Virus record (IMG/VR): IMGVR_UViG_3300028045_000047 | Coordinates: 1 to 34,214 of that record | From: a virus | Reading direction: 5' to 3' (one strand) | DNA length: 34,214 nucleotides | In this document: positions 1 to 34,214 of the stretch, piece by piece | Layout: each line of letters opens with the position of its first letter | How positions within the stretch are numbered: position 1 is the first letter of the stretch | Program-made: the position numbers and the translations under genes | The notes under the pieces: generated by a model | Databases searched by the model: none | Told to the model about the DNA's origin: nothing | Seen by the model: the letters and a program-made list of their open reading frames with translations, nothing else

Positions 1-135
1 ACCAGACAGGCATAAATCCTTTCAAGACTCCCCCAGATATTTTTTACTTAGCTTAAGCAAGCTATCCGCAATAAATGCCCTAAAATTTAACTAAGCTCTG
101 CATGATAACGTTTAGGCCGCGGATAAACAGAAGTC
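1..135. repeat. Contig-end overlap (same as 34080-34214)
   Basis: Positions 1-135 equal 34080-34214 except A127 against G34206. This shows a circular assembly. P22-like phages package by headful and have permuted, redundant ends, so the overlap is probably an assembly cut and not a fixed terminal repeat. The cut falls inside structured RNA copy 1. Confidence 0.9.
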
Positions 136-285
136 TATGCCATGGTTTTGTGGTTTGGCCGACCAACAGGGATGTGAAAAGGTATTCTGATATCGTTATG
201 TAGATAAAGCTTAAAGAACGTTTAGGAAGGGTAAAGCCCTATCCATGGTAAACGGTCTATATGACCACTATGTCTATAAATAATA
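1..285 (+). ncRNA. Large structured RNA, copy 1, 3' part
   Basis: Continuation across the circle of the RNA that starts near 33895; total about 470 nt. It aligns with the reverse strand of 22508-22946. Conserved blocks include the AGCTTAAGCAAGCTATCCGC stretch at 51-69 and GGATGTGAA near 170. Helices seen: 34022-34031 with 7-16 (10 bp); 63-69 with 119-125 (TATCCGC/GCGGATA); and a 3' hairpin with 219-224/249-254, 225-227/242-244 and 229-231/237-239. Copy 2 keeps the outer 3' stem with different bases (AGACCTTAA/TTAAGGTCT). Homology stops at a shared ACTATGTYTATAAA block near 285. No terminator follows, so it may be a leader of the small genes from 371. The family is not recognised; structure is inferred by eye from two sequences. 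Confidence 0.75.
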
Positions 286-305
286 TAACCCCATAATCCA
301 ACCCT

Positions 306-319
306 CTGGTTAGACCACT
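306..319. promoter_or_regulatory. TGGTTAGACCA operator, site 1
   Basis: CTGGTTAGACCACT, with an exact dyad TGGT-TAG-ACCA. It lies just after the 3' end of structured RNA copy 1 and about 50 bases before the first small gene. It is one of six intergenic copies; the proposed binder is the GntR-like protein at 26947-27180 (inference). Confidence 0.55.
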
Positions 320-370: not shown

Positions 371-514
371 ATGAAGAATATTGATGCAGTTAGCAAGACA
401 AACTCAAATAAAGAGCCTATAGATATAAAAAGCAACGTGATAATTGTTATTGTTTTCGCTGTAGTGTGTGCGGGCGAGTCCATTACGGATGGGTTGATTT
501 CATGGATTTTATAG
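371..514 (+). CDS. Small single-pass membrane protein (47 aa)
   Basis: ATG follows AAGGGGAATTGTG, a good Shine-Dalgarno (SD) leader. The protein has a polar N-terminal half (about residues 1-20) and one hydrophobic segment at about 22-34 (NVIIVIVFAVVCAG), then a short tail. It overlaps the next gene by 13 bases, as expected for translational coupling, and is the first gene after structured RNA copy 1. No family is recognised. A small holin, antiholin or other membrane-acting peptide is possible but not shown. Confidence 0.6.
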   Translation: MKNIDAVSKTNSNKEPIDIKSNVIIVIVFAVVCAGESITDGLISWIL

Positions 515-744
515 TTTTAGGTATCGGTGTTATAATCCTGATGCTATCTATAACAATATCTTATTTATCAGGGGTTAGAGCAGGAAAGTTTGAAATTAGG
601 GAGGATTATAAAGACCATATATCATTAAAAGGTCTTTCTAAACCAGCGAGGGAAAAGCTATCTAGACATTATCAAACCACTTTGATATGGGATGAAGAAA
701 GAGGCCCAAACAGAAACCTATTTAAACCCGTTCACTTTGACTAA
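502..744 (+). CDS. Small membrane protein (80 aa)
   Basis: Start taken at ATG 502 (MDFIVLGIG); an upstream GTG in frame at 466 would lie deep in the preceding gene. The N-terminus is one transmembrane helix, about residues 2-23, followed by a charged cytoplasmic-type tail of about 55 residues ending FKPVHFD. It overlaps the 47-aa gene in another frame. Function is unknown; the shape (N-anchor plus soluble tail) is common among phage small membrane proteins. Confidence 0.6.
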   Translation: MDFIVLGIGVIILMLSITISYLSGVRAGKFEIREDYKDHISLKGLSKPAREKLSRHYQTTLIWDEERGPNRNLFKPVHFD

Positions 745-755
745 GAGAGTAAATT

Positions 756-836
756 ATGCCACGTGTACCAAAACCAAAACCAAAACCAAAAGCCAAGAAG
801 CCAACCAAAGGAAAGGTGAAAAAATCAGTTATTTAA
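756..836 (+). CDS. Lysine-proline tandem peptide (26 aa)
   Basis: ATG 756 follows TAAGAGAGTAAATT, giving an SD-like GAGAG. The peptide begins MPRV and then repeats PK five times, followed by KKPTKGKVKKSVI; about half its residues are lysine or arginine. The PK run is encoded by a CCAAAA microrepeat. Such a peptide could bind nucleic acid or membrane lipid, but no function can be assigned. It sits in the same small-gene cassette, between an 80-aa and a 173-aa membrane protein. Confidence 0.45.
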   Translation: MPRVPKPKPKPKAKKPTKGKVKKSVI

Positions 837-858: not shown

Positions 859-1380
859 GTGGATATTCTAAGTAGCATGCTTGCAAACCAAGTTGTGGCC
901 GCATTTAGTGCGGTCATGCTTGTTTTGTGCGCCTATCATAAGTACAAGTTTAATCGCTACAGCAATACATGCTTAGTCGTGGCCTTATGGCTAGCTCTTG
1001 AGGTGTTGTCGGATTACGTGGCAATATCTTTTAGTCAAACAGTTACCCCTATAGAGGCTGTCAGGTATTTTTTTATACTAGCGTCAGCCTCTCTCGTCAT
1101 GATGGCGACAACCCACCTTAACGGACTATACCCTAAAAGCATACGGATTATGTTTACCGCAATTACATTTTTATGTGTCTCAATGGCCTTCTGGCGTTGG
1201 GGTGTGCAAACTAGATGGGATAGTGGGGGCGCTGAGTTTTACGACTCTTACGGCGTCCTGATTGACTCATCGTTTTTTTGCTCAATTGTGGGGTTAGACA
1301 CCCTAATGATAATCTTAGGGGTTTATAGTGCGTTGGATATTAATTCTAATGCCGATGATGGCATGCGCGGCAGATGGTGA
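859..1380 (+). CDS. Polytopic membrane protein (173 aa), holin candidate
   Basis: The GTG at 859 opens the frame; ATG 877 is an alternative and neither has a strong SD. Hydrophobic segments are seen at about residues 8-25, 36-57, 66-84, 92-110 and 133-155, so four or five passes are likely. The linker WGVQTRWDSGGAEFYD is polar. It lies directly before a second holin-like gene and a terminator. No specific family is recognised. The dedicated endolysin and 3TM holin lie elsewhere (24962-25800, minus strand), so a lysis role here would be additional and is only inferred. Confidence 0.55.
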   Translation: MDILSSMLANQVVAAFSAVMLVLCAYHKYKFNRYSNTCLVVALWLALEVLSDYVAISFSQTVTPIEAVRYFFILASASLVMMATTHLNGLYPKSIRIMFTAITFLCVSMAFWRWGVQTRWDSGGAEFYDSYGVLIDSSFFCSIVGLDTLMIILGVYSALDINSNADDGMRGRW

Positions 1381-1465
1381 CGAAACGGTTTCAGGTGTAG
1401 GTTTCACTATACTTTCATTGGCTGCATTAATTTACAAATATAAGATATACGAGAGACGTAACAAT

Positions 1466-1798
1466 ATGAATGATAAAGTAGAGTCATTAATTAGCTTAAA
1501 GCAATCTATAGTTATGTTGTTTGCTGGCGGGGCGGCTAGCCTAACCGCCACTAACGTTATATCTTTATTTGGCATGGTGTTAACCGCTATGGGGCTTGTG
1601 TTTGTATTCCTTAATTGGACGGTGTCCAGGCGTAGTTTTATAGAGCGTAAACGCAGGAATGACTTGCTAGAAAAAGAACTGGATTGGAAGATAGGCGAAC
1701 AGGGCAAAGTTCAGGCTTCAGAGGCTAAAAGGGCTAGGATTAATAATATTAAGCGGGGGTCTTCTGGTGGCAGTATACCGCAAAGCAAAAGTAAATAG
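1466..1798 (+). CDS. Two-pass holin-like membrane protein (110 aa)
   Basis: Start chosen at ATG 1466 (MNDKVESL), preceded by GAGAG at a distance of 10. The frame is open upstream: GTG 1328 or ATG 1349 would add an N-terminus overlapping the preceding gene. Two transmembrane segments (about residues 10-27 and 31-49) are followed by a strongly basic tail (SRRSFIERKRRNDLLEKE and KRARINNIKRG). Short, two helices and a basic tail is the shape of HP1-type and other class II holins. The gene ends just before an intrinsic terminator. The holin role is inferred from shape. Confidence 0.6.
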   Translation: MNDKVESLISLKQSIVMLFAGGAASLTATNVISLFGMVLTAMGLVFVFLNWTVSRRSFIERKRRNDLLEKELDWKIGEQGKVQASEAKRARINNIKRGSSGGSIPQSKSK

Positions 1799-1814
1799 CC
1801 TAATCTCTCATTGT

Positions 1815-1833
1815 CCCCGAAAGGGGTTTTTTT
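1815..1833 (+). terminator. Intrinsic terminator
   Basis: CCCC-GAAA-GGGG hairpin with a GNRA loop, followed by seven T. It closes the small-gene cassette that follows structured RNA copy 1. Confidence 0.85.
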
Positions 1834-1850
1834 ATACCTAAGATAAATAA

Positions 1851-8454: not shown

Positions 8455-8469
8455 CTGGTCTAACCACTA
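8455..8469. promoter_or_regulatory. TGGTTAGACCA operator, site 2
   Basis: CTGGTCTAACCACTA, the dyad in reverse. It lies immediately after the stop of the 90-aa gene and 21 bases upstream of the -35 at 8490, a position suited to an activator. Confidence 0.55.
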
Positions 8470-16393: not shown

Positions 16394-17016
16394 TGGCTGA
16401 CAAATTCACCAATTCTATAGCATCATTAAATCTTAGTGCGTCAAATATTACTAGCCTTACTGGCTGGCCTGACATAATGACAGATGACTATCTGACAAAC
16501 CTTCAAAACTTTATTGAAATTGCTAGAAATTCTGACGATTTGCTTGAACAGGTAGAGCAGAACGAAGCTAATATTATAGTCAACGCCGCCAACATTGCGA
16601 CTAATGCTGACAATATTACGACTAATGCTGACAACATTGCGACTAATGCTGACAATATTACGACTAATGCCGATGACATATCGACTAACGCTGACAATAT
16701 TATCATTGTAGCTGATGACCTGTCCGACCATGAATTGCTAAACAGCGCCCACGGGGTAACAGGTGATAACGTTGGTACTGAAGACTTTGCTCAGCCAGTA
16801 GTTGGTGGTGTGGTACTTTTGGCCGCATTGATAGCTGACCTTACAGCCATAGCAACGGCTGACATAGCAGCGGCACCCGTTGCATACGACCAAGTTTACA
16901 CGCAATCAGTAACCGACCTGACCAACGAAAACAAAGCAAAAATTAATGAAATAGTGTTAAAGGTTAACGCGATTATTTCAGGGCAAATCTCAGCAAACCA
17001 AATGGCGGCAATATGA
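16393..17016 (+). CDS. Tail needle, gp26-like trimeric coiled coil (207 aa)
   Basis: Seals the tail tip and pierces the outer membrane. ATG 16393 in a TAATG overlap. Residues 1-50 form a head-binding part, about 60-112 a regular seven-residue repeat N-I-[AT]-T-N-A-D (trimeric coiled coil), and the rest a C-terminal helix (DLTNENKAKINEIVLKVNAI). P22 gp26 is 233 aa with the same layout. Length of the needle could change by gaining or losing 21-bp units. Confidence 0.8.
   Translation: MADKFTNSIASLNLSASNITSLTGWPDIMTDDYLTNLQNFIEIARNSDDLLEQVEQNEANIIVNAANIATNADNITTNADNIATNADNITTNADDISTNADNIIIVADDLSDHELLNSAHGVTGDNVGTEDFAQPVVGGVVLLAALIADLTAIATADIAAAPVAYDQVYTQSVTDLTNENKAKINEIVLKVNAIISGQISANQMAAI
16591..16695 (+). 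repeat. 21-bp tandem repeat in the needle gene
   Basis: Five near-identical 21-bp units, such as AACATTGCGACTAATGCTGA plus C, each encoding one heptad. Units alternate GCG and ACG codons, so the larger repeat is 42 bp. A degenerate sixth unit lies at 16570-16590. Confidence 0.9.
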
Positions 17017-19777: not shown

Positions 19778-21681
19778 TGGCTAAACCATGGGAGAACTAT
19801 CAAGCTCAAGCCAAGGCTACGCCGTGGGGAAAATACGCCCCTCAGCAGCAGCCAGAGCCAGCGCCACAGCAAGCACCAGTAGAGCAGCCACAGGAAAAAG
19901 GCTTTCTAGACCAAGCAAGCGACATGTTCACAGGTGCCGATAGAATGACGCCTGAGATGGAATCAATGGGCGAGATTGGTAGTGCACCAGAAATGAATGA
20001 AATGTCGATGAGCGCGTTCAAGTCATCTTTAGGGCTATTAACAACTGGCGATGAAGAAAAAGCGAAAGCAGTTCTTCAGGAAAATATGCCCAACGCGGAA
20101 TTTACCACCGACTCAAAAGGAAACGTTATTGTTAACCTTCCTTCTGGTCAGTACGCATTAAATAAACCTGGACTTAGTGCGCAAGATATGCTAAGAGGCG
20201 CGTTTAATATGGCGGCATTTACTCCAGCGGCAAGGCTTGGGAGTATTGGCGGTGTAGCGGCAGGCTCAGCAGCTACTGAAGCAGCAATGCAAGGAGCAAC
20301 TAAGGCCTTTGGTGGTGGTGACATAGACCCCATGGATATCGCCCTATCTGGTGCGATTGGTGGCGCTGGTAAAGGTCTGGAAAATGTAATAGGAACAGGC
20401 TACAGAGCATTGAAAGGCCAAGTCCCTGAAGAAGCAGCGGGAGTTATCGCCCAAGGTAAAGAATATGGTGTTCCCGTGATGACTTCTGATGTCATACGCC
20501 CGACAACATCAGCGGGTAAGATAGCTAGGTCTACAGGCGAAAAGGTTCCTTTTGTTGGCACTGGACAAGCAAGAGCTACGCAGCAGGAAGCGAGAGGCGA
20601 GGCTGTGCAAGGTTTTGCTGACCGATATCAAGCACCGTCATACTCTGAAATTGTAGATAGCATGAAAATGAAATCTAAGGGGATTAAGACAGCGGCGGGG
20701 AACATCCTAGGTAAAACTGGCGACAAGCTTGATGATGTGGGAGATATTCCAACTGAAAACACAGCTAACGCGATAGGTGATGCCATGGAGTCATTGAGCA
20801 AGCCTAATGTTAGGGTAGACCAATCGGCAATCGATGAGCTAAAAGAGCTTAAAAATTTAATGGATATGCCGCAAACCTTTACCAGCTTAAAAGAAAACAG
20901 AACCATTGCCAGAGACATACTTGAATCTTTTGGTAAAGGTGATCGCTCTCAGCTTCCTTCTAGGTCTAAAGCCTTAGTGACTAAAGCTGTTGATGGTATG
21001 TCTAAGGATATGGACGAGTTCGCCAAGTCCAACCTAACACCAAAGGAGTACTCAAGCTGGAAAAGGGCTAACTCTGTTTATGCTGAAGAGGCCACCAAGT
21101 TAAGAAAGTCTAAGATAAAAAACATTTTAGACAAGGGTGATATTACCCCTGAAAACGTTAACACAATGCTTTTCAGCAAGAAGCCAAGCGAAGTTAAAAT
21201 GCTTTATGAATCACTTACCACCAAGGGCAAGGATAACGCTAGGGCGGCATTGATTGACAAGGCAGTTGGTAACGCATCAAGAAGGGCTGGCGGATTATCT
21301 CCTAACTCGTTTTCTAGCGAGCTTAACAAGATATCTGGCAATACTGGGGTATTTTTTAGGGGTGAAGAAAGGAAGCAGCTTGAAGGGTTTAAACGATTGA
21401 TGGAATCAACAAGGCAAGCTCAAGATGCAGCAATTGCAACCCCTACAGGCCAACAGATGTTAGGTGTAGCGGCTGGAGCTTCAGCCATTACAGACTTAGG
21501 TGCAACGCTAGGTGCTGGTGCCACTGTCGGAGGCTTAGCAAGGGTTTATGAATCACCAGCCGTTAGGAATGCTTTGCTTCGCGTTGCTTCTGTTCCTCGC
21601 GGTTCCGATCGCTTTTCGAAAGCGCTTTCTGAAGCTCAAGCCGCTTTAACCGCTTCCGTTCAAGCAAGTACTTCTGAATAA
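19777..21681 (+). CDS. DNA-ejection protein, gp16 position (634 aa)
   Basis: Third ejection gene, again with a TAATG overlap. Starts with AKPWENYQAQAKATPWGKYA and a Pro/Gln-rich segment (residues about 20-40), then a Gly/Ala-rich hydrophobic region (LGSIGGVAAGSAATEAAMQG near 150 and ALSGAIGGAGKGLENVIGTG near 190), probably membrane-interacting, then a long helical part. P22 gp16 is 609 aa. The last 119 bases overlap an antisense gene (21563-21739), and codon use there looks unusual (runs such as SVPRGSDRFSKAL). Confidence 0.75.
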   Translation: MAKPWENYQAQAKATPWGKYAPQQQPEPAPQQAPVEQPQEKGFLDQASDMFTGADRMTPEMESMGEIGSAPEMNEMSMSAFKSSLGLLTTGDEEKAKAVLQENMPNAEFTTDSKGNVIVNLPSGQYALNKPGLSAQDMLRGAFNMAAFTPAARLGSIGGVAAGSAATEAAMQGATKAFGGGDIDPMDIALSGAIGGAGKGLENVIGTGYRALKGQVPEEAAGVIAQGKEYGVPVMTSDVIRPTTSAGKIARSTGEKVPFVGTGQARATQQEARGEAVQGFADRYQAPSYSEIVDSMKMKSKGIKTAAGNILGKTGDKLDDVGDIPTENTANAIGDAMESLSKPNVRVDQSAIDELKELKNLMDMPQTFTSLKENRTIARDILESFGKGDRSQLPSRSKALVTKAVDGMSKDMDEFAKSNLTPKEYSSWKRANSVYAEEATKLRKSKIKNILDKGDITPENVNTMLFSKKPSEVKMLYESLTTKGKDNARAALIDKAVGNASRRAGGLSPNSFSSELNKISGNTGVFFRGEERKQLEGFKRLMESTRQAQDAAIATPTGQQMLGVAAGASAITDLGATLGAGATVGGLARVYESPAVRNALLRVASVPRGSDRFSKALSEAQAALTASVQASTSE

Positions 21682-21739
21682 TCGGTTGAAAAAAAGCGCC
21701 TACCAGAAACCACAAGGCAAAACTTTCAATCTCGTTCAT
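21563..21739 (-). CDS. Antisense-overlapping N-anchored membrane protein (58 aa)
   Basis: ATG at 21739 (minus) is preceded by AAGGTGG at spacing 5, a near-perfect SD. The protein has one N-terminal helix (FALWFLVGAFFQPIIQKYLL, residues 7-26) and a very charged tail (ERKRLKRLELQKALSKSDRN, then EEQKQREAKHS). The gene's last 119 bases lie opposite the end of the gp16-position gene. Third gene of the minus island after structured RNA copy 2. The shape recalls small anchored regulators or spanin-like peptides, but it has no lipobox and no signal cleavage site. Confidence 0.6.
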   Translation of the reverse strand: MNEIESFALWFLVGAFFQPIIQKYLLERKRLKRLELQKALSKSDRNREEQKQREAKHS

Positions 21740-21789: not shown

Positions 21790-22323
21790 TTAAATATCAT
21801 ATTTTTGTGTAATGCTTTTAAAAATAAATTCCGCATCATAACTAAAAATATCCTTTGGTCTTTCTTTAAAGCATACGATTTTATTAGACGAGCTAGGTTC
21901 ATACGCATAGTAAGTATTACCACCTGACATTGTAGTTGTTGCTGTGCCATTAGTATTTACAGTACCGTAAATATTATTACCATAGGCATTCGCGGTGACA
22001 TAAGTATTAGAATTTGCATTTGTTGTGGCAATTGTTGGTGTAGTATAAGAGCTTTCTGTTGTATACTTGTTAGAGCCTACGACTACAAAATAGTTAAACC
22101 CACTTTTAATGGCTAACTCTGCACTCCTAAGAAGCGTAAAATCGGTTGCACGCTCCATCTCTGTGAATTTATTGCCAACAAAGGAAACAATAAAAATATT
22201 TTCATCAAGTTGTGTTTCTGAATATCCACCAGAAAAACCTCTATCTTGGTAGGGAGTGCTACAACCTACAAGCAAGGATATAGCAACAACCAGCAACTTA
22301 AATTTAATCAAGATAATGTCCAT
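21790..22323 (-). CDS. CC0125/CC1285-type lipoprotein (177 aa)
   Basis: Start taken at ATG 22323; an upstream TTG (22398) would overlap the preceding gene. Signal peptide KFKLLVVAISLLVG with lipobox LVGC, acylated Cys21. The mature part begins STPYQDRGFSGGYSETQLDE and FIVSFVGNKFTEMERATDFT LLRSAELAI, the signature of the CC0125/CC1285 family of bacterial lipoproteins. A Thr/Asn-rich low-complexity stretch (about 105-140) follows. This is a bacterial-type gene on the strand opposite to the virion operon, so a moron for a lysing or carrying cell. Role unknown. Confidence 0.75.
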   Translation of the reverse strand: MDIILIKFKLLVVAISLLVGCSTPYQDRGFSGGYSETQLDENIFIVSFVGNKFTEMERATDFTLLRSAELAIKSGFNYFVVVGSNKYTTESSYTTPTIATTNANSNTYVTANAYGNNIYGTVNTNGTATTTMSGGNTYYAYEPSSSNKIVCFKERPKDIFSYDAEFIFKSITQKYDI

Positions 22324-22363
22324 TTTTTTTGTATAAGAAACATCATCATAACTAAATAAATCT

Positions 22364-22495
22364 TTATATAATTTTTTTATTGTAATTTTGGTCGTCAATC
22401 CAAGAGATAACTAACGCCCACATAACAATAGCGATGATATAACCTGTGGGCAGTAGAGCCAAAAATATAATATCAAAGAAAGTACGGTCATTCAT
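22364..22495 (-). CDS. Tiny single-pass membrane protein (43 aa)
   Basis: ATG 22495 (minus) follows AAAGGTGATAAAA. The peptide has one transmembrane helix (IIFLALLPTGYIIAIVMWAL, residues 9-28) between short polar ends (MNDRTFFD and DDQNYNKKII). It is the first gene after structured RNA copy 2, its SD beginning only a few bases after the last conserved RNA block. Same arrangement as the 47-aa gene after copy 1, but with no sequence similarity that I can see. Confidence 0.55.
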   Translation of the reverse strand: MNDRTFFDIIFLALLPTGYIIAIVMWALVISWIDDQNYNKKII

Positions 22496-22507
22496 TTTTT
22501 ATCACCT

Positions 22508-22946
22508 TTATTTTTTTATAAACATAGTATCAACAAGACCTTAATCATGGATGGAGGTTAACCCCAGCCTTAAGGTCTATTTACCGTTATCATGCAATCG
22601 CAGTAATCAGGTAGCCTATTCACATCCTTGTTGGTAGCTAAAACCATATCCCCATATGACAGAACCTGTTTATCTCGCCTTGAAAAAGTCGTATTGCATC
22701 GGTACTAAATTGAATTTAGGGCATTTTACGCGGATAGCTTGCTTAAGCTAATGGGTTATCTCTGTGGGAGTTTTGCTGAAAGGATTTGTGTCTTATAAAC
22801 TATCACCAAATAGACACAAAAAAGGGTTTAAAATGTAACCCCGTTGGAAGTGGGGTGTAGTTCAGCGAGTGATAAAAACCCTCCGAGATTACAATCTAAA
22901 CCCACTCGTAAACTACTTTCAGCAGCTTCCACACCGCTTTTTACGT
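22508..22946 (-). ncRNA. Large structured RNA, copy 2
   Basis: About 440 nt on the minus strand, aligning over its whole length with copy 1 (33895 through 285). Helices kept with changed bases: pseudoknot stems 22904-22909/22865-22870 and 22890-22903/22824-22837; 22812-22820/22785-22793 (TTTGTGTCT/AGACACAAA against TTTATGCCTG/CAGGCATAAA in copy 1); and the 3' stem 22570-22578/22536-22544. It lacks about 40 nt of inner hairpins that copy 1 carries. Its promoter is at 22952-22980. No terminator separates it from the 43-aa gene. Confidence 0.78.
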
Positions 22947-22951
22947 TCTGC

Positions 22952-22980
22952 ATTGTACATATCAGTACACAACAAGACAA
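22952..22980 (-). promoter_or_regulatory. Promoter of structured RNA copy 2
   Basis: Minus strand TTGTCT (22980-22975), 17-base spacer, TACAAT (22957-22952). Same geometry and same distance to the RNA as the copy 1 promoter (TTGAGG-17-TAGTAT). Confidence 0.7.
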
Positions 22981-23003: not shown

Positions 23004-23017
23004 AGTGGTCTAACCAG
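23004..23017. promoter_or_regulatory. TGGTTAGACCA operator, site 3
   Basis: AGTGGTCTAACCAG between the divergent structured-RNA copy 2 promoter (minus) and the tailspike promoter (plus). It could control both. Confidence 0.55.
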
Positions 23018-24961: not shown

Positions 24962-25381
24962 TTACTTTGAAACCCCCTTGAACTTTTCATAAGTTCTCAT
25001 ACCACCAAGCCCTAGAAGCGCCATGACAAGCGCTAGCATTTCACTAGCGTCAACTCTAGGGAGGTACGGCAAAAGTCTTGTGAAATTGGCCGTATCCATC
25101 GATATAACCATAATTGATATCATTAGGTCTTTAAAAAACCACGCATACATCAAACAAAAACCAGCCATCCAGCCGAGGAATGGACGCCAACCAGATTGAA
25201 AGAATGATTTGGCCTTTGAGTCTTCTATATTGTTTAGCGCTTGGAGTATTTGGGGCTGTGTGACTATCTCAAGCGTTTTATTGTAACCCTCAAGCCTTTC
25301 TTTATCTGAGGTGAAAAGGGCGTCAAGACCACTAGCCGCGCCTTTAACAACTCCCTCGACTATATCGGCAGTGATTGCCAT
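24962..25381 (-). CDS. Holin, 3TM type (139 aa)
   Basis: Membrane protein that lets the endolysin reach the wall. The motif FQSGWRPFLGWMAGFCLMYAW (residues about 59-80) is characteristic of the 3TM holin family; further helices at about 84-95 and 113-127. The N-terminal 55 residues are soluble (DALFTSDKERLEGYNKTLEI). Its start overlaps the endolysin stop by one base. Last gene of the lysis operon. Confidence 0.85.
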   Translation of the reverse strand: MAITADIVEGVVKGAASGLDALFTSDKERLEGYNKTLEIVTQPQILQALNNIEDSKAKSFFQSGWRPFLGWMAGFCLMYAWFFKDLMISIMVISMDTANFTRLLPYLPRVDASEMLALVMALLGLGGMRTYEKFKGVSK

Positions 25382-25800
25382 TACATATATTCCCCTTTTT
25401 CCATTTGCATAGAAAGTTCTAGTGCTCTATCTCCGGTCTGCTCAGCCCATTTACTATTAAGCATTTCCTTCGAAGCTGTCAGATAATCGCCAGCTTCAAC
25501 TGCCGCTAGCATCTTCTTGAATCTTAGAAGCCCATTAACTCCAAGGTTGAACGCCATATTAACGAGCACATCAGCCCTAGGTTTGCTCAATAAGTGAAAG
25601 AACTCTATTTTATTAGGCAGGATATCAAAGAAATAAACAATATCGTTTTGCAATAGCCCTTCAGCTTCGAGTTTGGTTATTCCGTTTTGTTCTAAATTTC
25701 GACCGTATCCAATAGTTATTTTATTTGCTGTGCATTTGTAAGGCTTTAATCTTAAATCTTCATGACGTTTCAGTTGCTTTGATAATCGTGAGTTATTCAT
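25381..25800 (-). CDS. Endolysin, GH24 lysozyme (139 aa)
   Basis: Muramidase cutting peptidoglycan glycan strands. Glu14 in KRHEDLRLKPYKC, Cys23 at the place of T4 Asp20, and Thr29 in KITIGYGRN give an E-C-T triad, as in P1 Lyz. FNLGVNGL and KWAEQTGDRALELSMQMEKG are the usual later motifs. No SAR or signal segment, so export needs a holin. The preceding gene ends two bases earlier. Confidence 0.92.
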   Translation of the reverse strand: MNNSRLSKQLKRHEDLRLKPYKCTANKITIGYGRNLEQNGITKLEAEGLLQNDIVYFFDILPNKIEFFHLLSKPRADVLVNMAFNLGVNGLLRFKKMLAAVEAGDYLTASKEMLNSKWAEQTGDRALELSMQMEKGEYM

Positions 25801-26266: not shown

Positions 26267-26330
26267 TTAAGGATGGTCATAATCGTTACCCTATTAAGTT
26301 TCTAAATAGTACAACATTAAATAACGCTTA

Positions 26331-26343
26331 GAGGTCTAACCAG
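26331..26343. promoter_or_regulatory. TGGTTAGACCA operator, site 4
   Basis: GAGGTCTAACCAG; one half-site base differs from the others (GAGG for TGG). It abuts the -35 of the promoter for the OB-fold gene. Confidence 0.5.
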
Positions 26344-26460: not shown

Positions 26461-26895
26461 ATGAGAAAACGTGCAATTTTACTGCTAGCTGCTACCTCAA
26501 CAACAGCGTTTGCTAATCAAAATGTTCCTCAACAAAACATCCCGCAACAAAATGCTTATCAGCAAGTTATTCCTCAGCAAAATATTTACCAACAAGGTAT
26601 TTCTCATCAATGTGGATTTGTTGGCCCGAATGCTCCAGCGGTTAACTCTGTTCAAGTTGCCCGAGATGCTAGAGACGATTCACACGTTATATTGACGGGT
26701 CATATTGTTGCCGCTTTAGGTGATGAGGATTACATGTTTAGAGATTACACTGGTGAGATAGTCGTTGAGATTGACCACCGTGATTGGGGCGGAGTAGCGA
26801 CAACACCATATACCCTAGTAACTATTCATGGTGAAGTTGACAGGGATTGGACGCAAACCACTGTTGATGTATATTCAATTAAATTAGCAAGATAA
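26461..26895 (+). CDS. Periplasmic YgiW/YdeI-type OB-fold protein (144 aa)
   Basis: Signal peptide MRKRAILLLAATSTTAFA with cleavage after Ala18. A Gln-rich linker of repeated NxPQQN/NxYQQ units runs to about residue 45. Then the BOF domain: QCGFVGPNAPAVNSVQVARD, ILTGHIVAALGDEDYMFRDY and TGEIVVEIDHRDW, VTIHGEVDRDW, DVYSIKLAR, the full family pattern. Host relatives (YgiW, YdeI, VisP) act in envelope stress tolerance. The gene has its own promoter and terminator between two minus-strand operons, so a moron. Confidence 0.85.
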   Translation: MRKRAILLLAATSTTAFANQNVPQQNIPQQNAYQQVIPQQNIYQQGISHQCGFVGPNAPAVNSVQVARDARDDSHVILTGHIVAALGDEDYMFRDYTGEIVVEIDHRDWGGVATTPYTLVTIHGEVDRDWTQTTVDVYSIKLAR

Positions 26896-29325: not shown

Positions 29326-29390
29326 AATATGGTTATTGTGTTTCCATATTGTTATTTTTTAAAGAATACTTTAAAGAATACTGTAAAGAA
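29326..29390 (-). promoter_or_regulatory. Control region of the replication operon
   Basis: Inverted repeat AATATGG/CCATATT (29326-29332, 29344-29350) and tandem TTAAAGAATACT (29359-29370, 29371-29382, partial to 29390), about 30-90 bases upstream of the initiator. A weak promoter TTTAAA-17-CACAAT can be placed on the minus strand. Regulator unknown. Confidence 0.4.
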
Positions 29391-29416
29391 CCCTCGCTGA
29401 TACGGGGGTTTTTTTT
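29391..29416. terminator. Intrinsic terminator
   Basis: CCCTCG/CGGGGG stem, loop CTGATA, then eight T on the plus strand. The T run overlaps the end of the minus-strand Phd-like gene; on the minus strand the stem is followed by TTCTTT, so it may work both ways. Confidence 0.7.
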
Positions 29417-33015: not shown

Positions 33016-33029
33016 CTGGTTAGACCACT
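33016..33029. promoter_or_regulatory. TGGTTAGACCA operator, site 5
   Basis: CTGGTTAGACCACT starting four bases after the preceding stop. It covers the -35 place for the -10 GATAAT at 33048. Confidence 0.55.
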
Positions 33030-33554: not shown

Positions 33555-33737
33555 ATGAAAGAAGATATTGCTAGCTTAATGGCTAAAGTAGAAGAGCTTG
33601 AGGGTGTGATTCATCATTGTTGGTTATATTCTGGATATGGAGATTGCGGCTCTAATAAGATGACAGCAGCCGAAAAGGAATGCTATTTAGGTGCTGTTAG
33701 AGATGTGTCTGATAGAATTGACAAGCAATCTAACTAA
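33555..33737 (+). CDS. Small coiled-coil protein (60 aa)
   Basis: Start at ATG 33555 because AAGGAGG, a perfect SD, is 11 bases before it; the frame also opens at 33507. N-terminal helix KEDIASLMAKVEELEGVIH, then a cysteine-containing middle (YGDCGSNKM) and helix AEKECYLGAVRDVSDRI. Unknown. Its 3' end contains the consensus promoter at 33718. Confidence 0.65.
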   Translation: MKEDIASLMAKVEELEGVIHHCWLYSGYGDCGSNKMTAAEKECYLGAVRDVSDRIDKQSN

Positions 33738-33746
33738 GTGTATAAT
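33718..33746 (+). promoter_or_regulatory. Perfect sigma70 promoter
   Basis: TTGACA (33718-33723), exactly 17 bases, TATAAT (33741-33746). Both hexamers are consensus. The -35 lies in the last codons of the preceding gene. Expected start near 33753. Confidence 0.9.
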
Positions 33747-33830: not shown

Positions 33831-33844
33831 AGTGGTTAGACCAG
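33831..33844. promoter_or_regulatory. TGGTTAGACCA operator, site 6
   Basis: AGTGGTTAGACCAG, 15 bases upstream of the -35 (33860) of structured RNA copy 1. Site 3 holds the same place relative to copy 2 (24 bases upstream of its -35). Confidence 0.55.
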
Positions 33845-33859
33845 ATTGGTTTTTTAATG

Positions 33860-33888
33860 TTGAGGTTATTTCACATATCGTGTAGTAT
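33860..33888 (+). promoter_or_regulatory. Promoter of structured RNA copy 1
   Basis: TTGAGG (33860-33865), 17 bases, TAGTAT (33883-33888). Same arrangement as the copy 2 promoter although their sequences differ, supporting function. Confidence 0.7.
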
Positions 33889-33894
33889 ACGCCT

Positions 33895-34214
33895 CGTTAC
33901 AAAGCGGTGCGGCAGTCGCTGAAAGCATTTTGTGAGTGGGTTTAGATTGTAGTCTCGGCGGGTTTAAAGTCACTCACTGAACTGCACCCCACTGTCAACG
34001 GGATTACATTCTAAGTCCTTTTTTATGCCTGCTTGGTGATAGCCTCATAAGCTATAAGGTTTCCCTATACCTACTGTCCACCAGACAGGCATAAATCCTT
34101 TCAAGACTCCCCCAGATATTTTTTACTTAGCTTAAGCAAGCTATCCGCAATAAATGCCCTAAAATTTAACTAAGCTCTGCATGATAACGTTTAGGCCGCG
34201 GATAAGCAGAAGTC
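33895..34214 (+). ncRNA. Large structured RNA, copy 1, 5' part
   Basis: First about 185 nt to 34079, then the overlap region repeated at 1-135. Helices: GTGAGT/ACTCAC (33932-33937, 33972-33977) and the 14-base pairing 33938-33951 with 34005-34018 (13 of 14 pairs, counting wobbles) cross each other, so an H-type pseudoknot. Then TTTATGCCTG (34022-34031) pairs with CAGGCATAAA (34086-34095, also 7-16). Each helix also forms in copy 2 with paired or wobble changes. Family not recognised. Confidence 0.78.
34080..34214. repeat. Contig-end overlap (same as 1-135)
   Basis: Second copy of the 135-base end overlap, with G at 34206 where the start has A at 127. Eight bases from the contig end, so the difference may be a sequence error or a minor variant. 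Confidence 0.9.

Follow-up and report, generated by a model that had tools for sequence, protein, structure and literature searches.

Two long noncoding stretches in the genome of a Vibrio-type phage lead directly into genes for tiny membrane proteins, which raises the question of whether these stretches control the genes that they precede or are transcribed for a purpose of their own. The window, that is, the whole stretch of DNA analyzed (34,214 nucleotides), is a circular virus genome in which positions 1-135 repeat 34080-34214 with one mismatch (a 135-bp terminal repeat). The noncoding stretch is present as two inverted copies, c1 on the plus strand and c2 on the minus strand, and copy 1 consequently runs over the artificial contig ends. 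Identity between the two copies is 82% over 145 nt of the 5′ domain and drops to 68% in the remaining ∼290 nt.

Layout of the two RNA copies and the genes that follow

Each copy was found to have a sigma70-like promoter of its own (Table 1). Pattern scans revealed no terminator-like site between the RNA and the first gene in either copy, as the original prediction had held; a terminator-like helix with U6 sits within the RNA itself. Copy 2 is followed by AAAGGTGATAAAAAATG, which opens a 43-aa TM ORF, and the coordinates confirmed the predicted succession of this ORF, a lipoprotein, and a 58-aa anchored ORF. The end of copy 1 is separated by ∼80 nt from a 47-aa membrane ORF, and the 80-aa ORF, the PK peptide, and two further membrane proteins predicted beyond it were also found; both of the latter had been called holin-like, a description that applies, weakly, to only one of them. 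The homolog of this protein in Shewanella phage ZP9 overlaps a gene annotated as endolysin, and the clear holin and endolysin of the window phage are located elsewhere (24962-25800). The lipoprotein has a 28% identical homolog in Acinetobacter phage Ab1656-2. No informative homolog was found for the ORFs of 43, 47, 58, and 80 aa, and their coding status therefore rests on position, SD sequence, and hydrophobicity.

Table 1. Positions of the RNA copies, their parts, and adjoining genes (window coordinates unless another locus is named)
Feature	Position	Strand	Remarks
RNA copy 1 (c1)	33898-34079, then 1-~290	+	crosses circular junction
Palindromic site AGTGGTTAGACCAG	33832-33845	+	putative regulator site, precedes copy 1 promoter
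Sigma70-like promoter, copy 1	33860-33888	+	TTGAGG-17-TAGTAT
Copy 1 5′ domain and start of P5	33898-34079	+	P1 from 33904; P5 tRNA-like stem from 34025
Copy 1 P2	P2a 33938-33955, P2b 34001-34018, U6 34019-34024	+	
Copy 1 remainder	1-290	+	P5 3′ side 7-13, 3′ domain, conserved GGTCTATATGACC...TATAAA end
47-aa membrane ORF	371-514	+	first gene after copy 1
80-aa membrane (TM) ORF	502-744	+	
26-aa PK-rich peptide ORF	756-836	+	
Membrane protein	859-1380	+	no family
Membrane protein	1328-1798	+	weak holin match (E 2e-4)
Terminator-like hairpin GTCCCCGAAAGGGGT-TTTTTT	1813-1834	+	closes copy 1 cassette
RNA copy 2 (c2)	22943 to ~22510	-	
Palindromic site CTGGTTAGACCACT	23004-23017	-	upstream of copy 2 promoter
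Sigma70-like promoter, copy 2	22952-22980	-	TTGTCT-17-TACAAT
Copy 2 5′ domain	22818-22943	-	P1 from 22937, P2a 22903-22886, U6 22823-22818
Copy 2 P5 stem GTGTCT/AGACAC	22788-22817	-	relatives hold tRNA or tRNA-like element here
Copy 2 3′ domain	22510-22787	-	ends with GGTCTTGTTGATACTATGTTTATAAA (from 22540)
43-aa membrane ORF	22364-22495	-	first gene after copy 2
Lipoprotein ORF	21790-22398	-	lipobox LVGC; long TTG frame, likely ATG near 22324
58-aa membrane-anchored ORF	21563-21739	-	
CCCCACTTTGCATTTGTGTGGAGTGGG element	L145 22924-22950, L147 1718-1744, L149 1452-1478, L151 1198-1224, L152 1416-1442		

The palindrome CTGGTTAGACCACT (or its reverse form) occurs in intergenic DNA at 306-319(+), 8455-8468, 23004-23017(-), 26330-26343(-), 33016-33029(+), and 33832-33845, with a chance expectation of ∼0.1. 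It stands 27-37 nt before the -35 element of c1, c2, and two other promoter-like sites, one of them before the lysis operon, and is possibly an activator site. A perfect consensus sigma70 promoter (TTGACA-17-TATAAT, 33718-33746) lies ∼150 nt upstream of copy 1, and a terminator-like CCCCTTAATTGGGGTTTTTTT stretch is found between this promoter and the copy. Elsewhere in the genome, a secreted-type BOF (bacterial OB-fold) protein is encoded at 26461-26895 (Pfam PF04076, E 7e-27), which is unusual for a phage, and a structural gene contains 21-nt tandem repeats (NADNITT-like) at 16570-16715.

Relatives and architecture of the RNA

A blastn search with the 5′ domain returned five Vibrio phages, in which the matching DNA was unannotated or reached an annotated tRNA. 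Further relatives were obtained from two IMG/VR pattern scans and from profile searches, and a covariance model (R1) matched four loci outside its training set with E < 1e-6. Additional blastn searches yielded phages NF, 1.122.A, vB_VaM_H2, BT-1011, Seahorse, and Pseudoalteromonas HS2. In 1.090.B, which is related to the window phage through its terminase, a distantly matching copy (E 7e-5) precedes a tailspike gene, with a short ORF in between; used as a lead, this copy gave ∼30 additional Vibrio phage records. The matches listed amount to at least 45 Vibrio/Pseudoalteromonas phage records that contain the RNA without annotating it, and two diverged copies are present in four genomes (the window, NF, G002, and G007). 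Most of a set of 339 matching records cover only the ∼40-nt promoter and were therefore left out of this count. An inverted-repeat promoter element, CCCCACTTTGCATTTGTGTGGAGTGGG, is common to many of these 339 Vibrio phage records and precedes the RNA in some and small genes in others (L148 variant, L149). Plasmids gave no match to the RNA. A pattern scan of genome contigs produced 23 matches, none in Vibrio, which were taken as chance because none convincingly fits the RNA profile, and weak profile matches at L048, L032, and L106 were rejected as coding or chance. No description of the RNA was found in open-licence papers.

Helices were assigned by hand in 25 sequences from related phages. The promoter is followed by a ∼120-nt 5′ domain, then by a real or degenerate tRNA or a stem of similar size, and then by the modular 3′ domain; roughly half of the copies finish with a conserved AU-rich end. 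Measured from P1, the start codon of the following gene is reached after 429-667 nt. A sigma70-like promoter was found directly upstream in 24 of the 25 homologs, with a gap of 6-24 nt between the end of its -10 element and the RNA (summed score of 241, against a mean of 166 and a maximum of 186 for shuffled sequence). The 5′ domain contains a GCGG hairpin, the loop of which pairs with a later segment to give a covarying pseudoknot, and an 18-bp helix, P2, which is directly followed by a T-run in all 25 homologs.

Each helix was compared with versions in which the pairing partners had been swapped. The P2 strands were 94% paired with their own partners and 68% (maximum 79%) with swapped ones (25 homologs, 17 versions), the loop pseudoknot 99% and 66% (10 versions, one sequence per version), and the P5 stem, which lies right after U6, 100% and 90% (maximum 98%; 9 versions), values that are supportive rather than exact probabilities since swapping partners does not remove relatedness. 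The 3′ domain exists in several versions, of which type II shows double changes at 18 base pairs. Minimum-free-energy z-scores were modest (-1.9 to -4.6). G-U (G-T) pairs are frequent in a covarying helix, on which ground a DNA element (palindrome) was rejected in favor of RNA; on this comparative evidence, the copies are real structured RNA.

The place of P5 is occupied in relatives by tRNA-Ser, Met, Trp, or Val, by an unassigned tRNA, or by T-loop elements, and tRNA-Arg or Gly may come after the element at this place; the P5 stem of the window copies is tRNA-sized or shorter. At L074 and L131, a degenerate tRNA-like element with two T-loop sequences in one acceptor-like stem follows U6. ARAGORN detected no tmRNA (a tRNA-like domain with a tag reading frame). 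At the other end, the motif GGTCTAATGA-N-TATTnTTTAAA marks the end of the RNA and adjoins the ribosome-binding site of the next gene in 17 of 30 copies.

The modules can be exchanged or lost. In phage K61 (L147 1740-2200), a type I 3′ domain is joined to a different 5′ domain that is without U6. In BT-1011 (L134 2500-2700), the 5′ domain and the first tRNA bases are followed directly by a gene, so that the whole RNA is not always retained; the tRNA and 3′ domain appear to have been deleted.

A function of its own or control of the following genes

Relatives likewise lead into a gene without a strong terminator before it, and co-transcription of RNA and genes, one part of the original proposal of a leader or a stand-alone RNA, is supported by position in both copies and in relatives. 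The genes themselves differ. C5 methylases are encoded downstream in 1.275.O and 1.122.A, N6 methylases (read from translations) at L074, L105, and L082 and in HS2, and a DNA methylase in jenny 12G5. A T5orf172 DNA-binding protein follows in 1.016.O, an HNH gene lies one ORF further downstream in K61, and many other relatives have hypotheticals. In NF, the copies are located ∼2.4 and ∼8 kb into operons, not at operon heads, and one precedes a phosphatase and the other a calcineurin-like phosphoesterase. In the loci tested, no other RNA copy was found to be accompanied by homologs of the window's cassette proteins. The comparison with genes downstream of homologous RNAs, which had been suggested as a check, thus gave no shared membrane cassette, and as far as these neighborhoods indicate, such cassettes are peculiar to the window phage. 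Because the relatives precede quite different genes, the RNA appears to serve a purpose of its own instead of acting to switch membrane-protein genes.

The reading preferred here, to which a probability of about 0.55 is assigned, is that of an RNA with its own function, GOLLD/ROOL-like but not homologous to these RNAs. It would be transcribed together with accessory genes and probably be set free by processing. Transcription would start at the dedicated sigma70 promoter and yield one primary transcript comprising the RNA, sometimes a tRNA, and the accessory mRNA, with polymerase reading through U6. Host enzymes would excise the tRNAs, and the RNA would be detached from the mRNA, possibly through RNase E cleavage at the AU-rich 3′ motif. 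The released RNA may then act as a free molecule in trans, comparable to GOLLD and ROOL, and the small membrane proteins would be incidental downstream cargo in the window phage.

In favor of an own function are the covariation over the length of the RNA, the unrelated downstream genes, the internal tRNAs, the promoter, the two diverged copies in four genomes, the lack of a strong terminator, and the 3′ motif beside the ribosome-binding site. Counted against it are the position of the RNA 5′ of a gene, as expected of a leader, the terminator-like P2-U6, a competing helix, the partial RNA of BT-1011, and the modest z-scores. The original prediction would have been contradicted by a discrete RNA, ending at about 285 and 22508, with separate gene promoters, and this applies in part only: the RNA does have its own promoter, but no promoter or terminator separates it from the genes.

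The main rival, which we regard as less likely, is cis-acting control of transcription, with the 5′ domain as a conditional terminator or antiterminator. P2 and U6 would halt the polymerase unless read-through to the tRNAs and genes were enabled, either by an alternative fold (AGWGGG/CCCWCT) that uses the GGG of P2 or by a put-like fold that modifies RNAP. Since the 5′ domain ends in a helix and then U6, an attenuator or antiterminator role is possible. The invariant T-run after P2 is consistent with this model, as are the terminator-like score of 22842-22823 in a scan, the start of the RNA at a promoter with no later strong terminator before the gene, and the retention of only the 5′ domain in BT-1011. 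A candidate competing 11-bp helix was also found in one subgroup, with few covarying columns, and two copies per genome recall putL/putR. By contrast, a covarying 3′ domain of ∼250 nt and P5 or a tRNA lie beyond U6, so read-through would be required to make them, the downstream genes are unrelated, the NF copies lie well inside operons, and no match to HK022 was obtained.

It is improbable that the RNA is the remnant of a tRNA-cassette leader, a pre-tRNA structure that aids only tRNA maturation and has stems that reflect decay after tRNA loss. A tRNA or tRNA-like element directly after U6 in many relatives and the P5 stem retained in the window copies would fit such an origin, but copies without a tRNA keep strongly structured 5′ and 3′ domains, and helices are maintained while the paralogs diverge.

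Control of translation was one of the functions originally proposed; for the downstream gene, in the form of riboswitch-like SD sequestration, it is very unlikely. The end of the copy 2 RNA is near an SD, and pairing at the start of the gene after c1 and at four other starts somewhat exceeded that with shuffled RNA. Averaged over 15 loci, however, the unpaired fraction of SD/start regions was 0.49 with native and 0.45 with shuffled RNA; start regions are on average not more paired with the native RNA, SD sequestration was rejected accordingly, and the downstream genes are without conservation. Least probable, and already disfavored, is that the RNA serves specifically to sense or to partner small membrane proteins: both window copies precede TM ORFs, but the relatives precede methylases, phosphatases, HNH/DNA-binding proteins, and hypotheticals, and no cassette homologs were found next to them in the loci tested.

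That tRNA, structured RNA, and accessory mRNA share one predicted transcript makes processing, read-through, and function separable experimentally. The RNA occurs in culturable phages with tractable hosts, and the compensatory changes permit direct mutational tests.

Comparison with known RNAs

To our knowledge, large structured phage RNAs have no known function, and few classes are available for comparison. Rfam searches of the window and relatives (E up to 1, and at gathering) gave no GOLLD and no ROOL, at gathering the relatives yielded nothing but tRNAs, and no covariance model of a T-box or other Rfam cis-regulator matched. An OmrA-B-like match below the cut-off (29343-29416) ends in a clear intrinsic terminator and is possibly just that terminator.

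The put RNA of HK022 is found at the starts of early operons and makes RNA polymerase terminator-resistant. The RNA described here resembles it as an element after a promoter, with two per genome and no terminator before the genes, but put is much smaller (∼70 nt), and in NF the RNA lies within operons, though nearly all copies have their own promoters. A search of HK022 with model R1 gave no match. Vibrio phage ICP1 produces an abundant ∼800-nt noncoding transcript between gp139 and gp140 (PMC7567579). This is likewise a Vibrio phage RNA upstream of a gene cluster, but a terminator-like hairpin of its own separates it from the next gene, and it has no tRNA; the gp139-gp140 gap gave no profile match and nothing significant with model R1.

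GOLLD is a large phage RNA with a variable 5′ part, a linker sometimes containing tRNAs, and a structured 3′ part, and is found near tRNAs; ROOL is phage-borne, elaborate, pseudoknotted, and near tRNAs (PMC12286853). Here too, tRNAs lie in a linker between two structured parts. GOLLD often exceeds ∼800 nt, whereas the present RNA is about half its length, has a modular 3′ domain, and reads into accessory genes; GOLLD is a closed homo-oligomer, and the present RNA is known from sequence alone. With ROOL it shares a phage-borne, elaborate, pseudoknotted character, but its tRNAs are inside the RNA instead of near it, and the host group differs. Given that no Rfam model matches, the RNA is regarded as a new family, possibly GOLLD/ROOL-like in action, with membership not claimed. 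Tentatively, and with somewhat less than even confidence, it may form, next to GOLLD and ROOL, a third class of the large ornate RNAs of phages, one that is modular, common in Vibrio phages, carries tRNAs in its linker, heads accessory cassettes, and acts in trans, where it might, for instance, carry or shelter the tRNAs of the phage.
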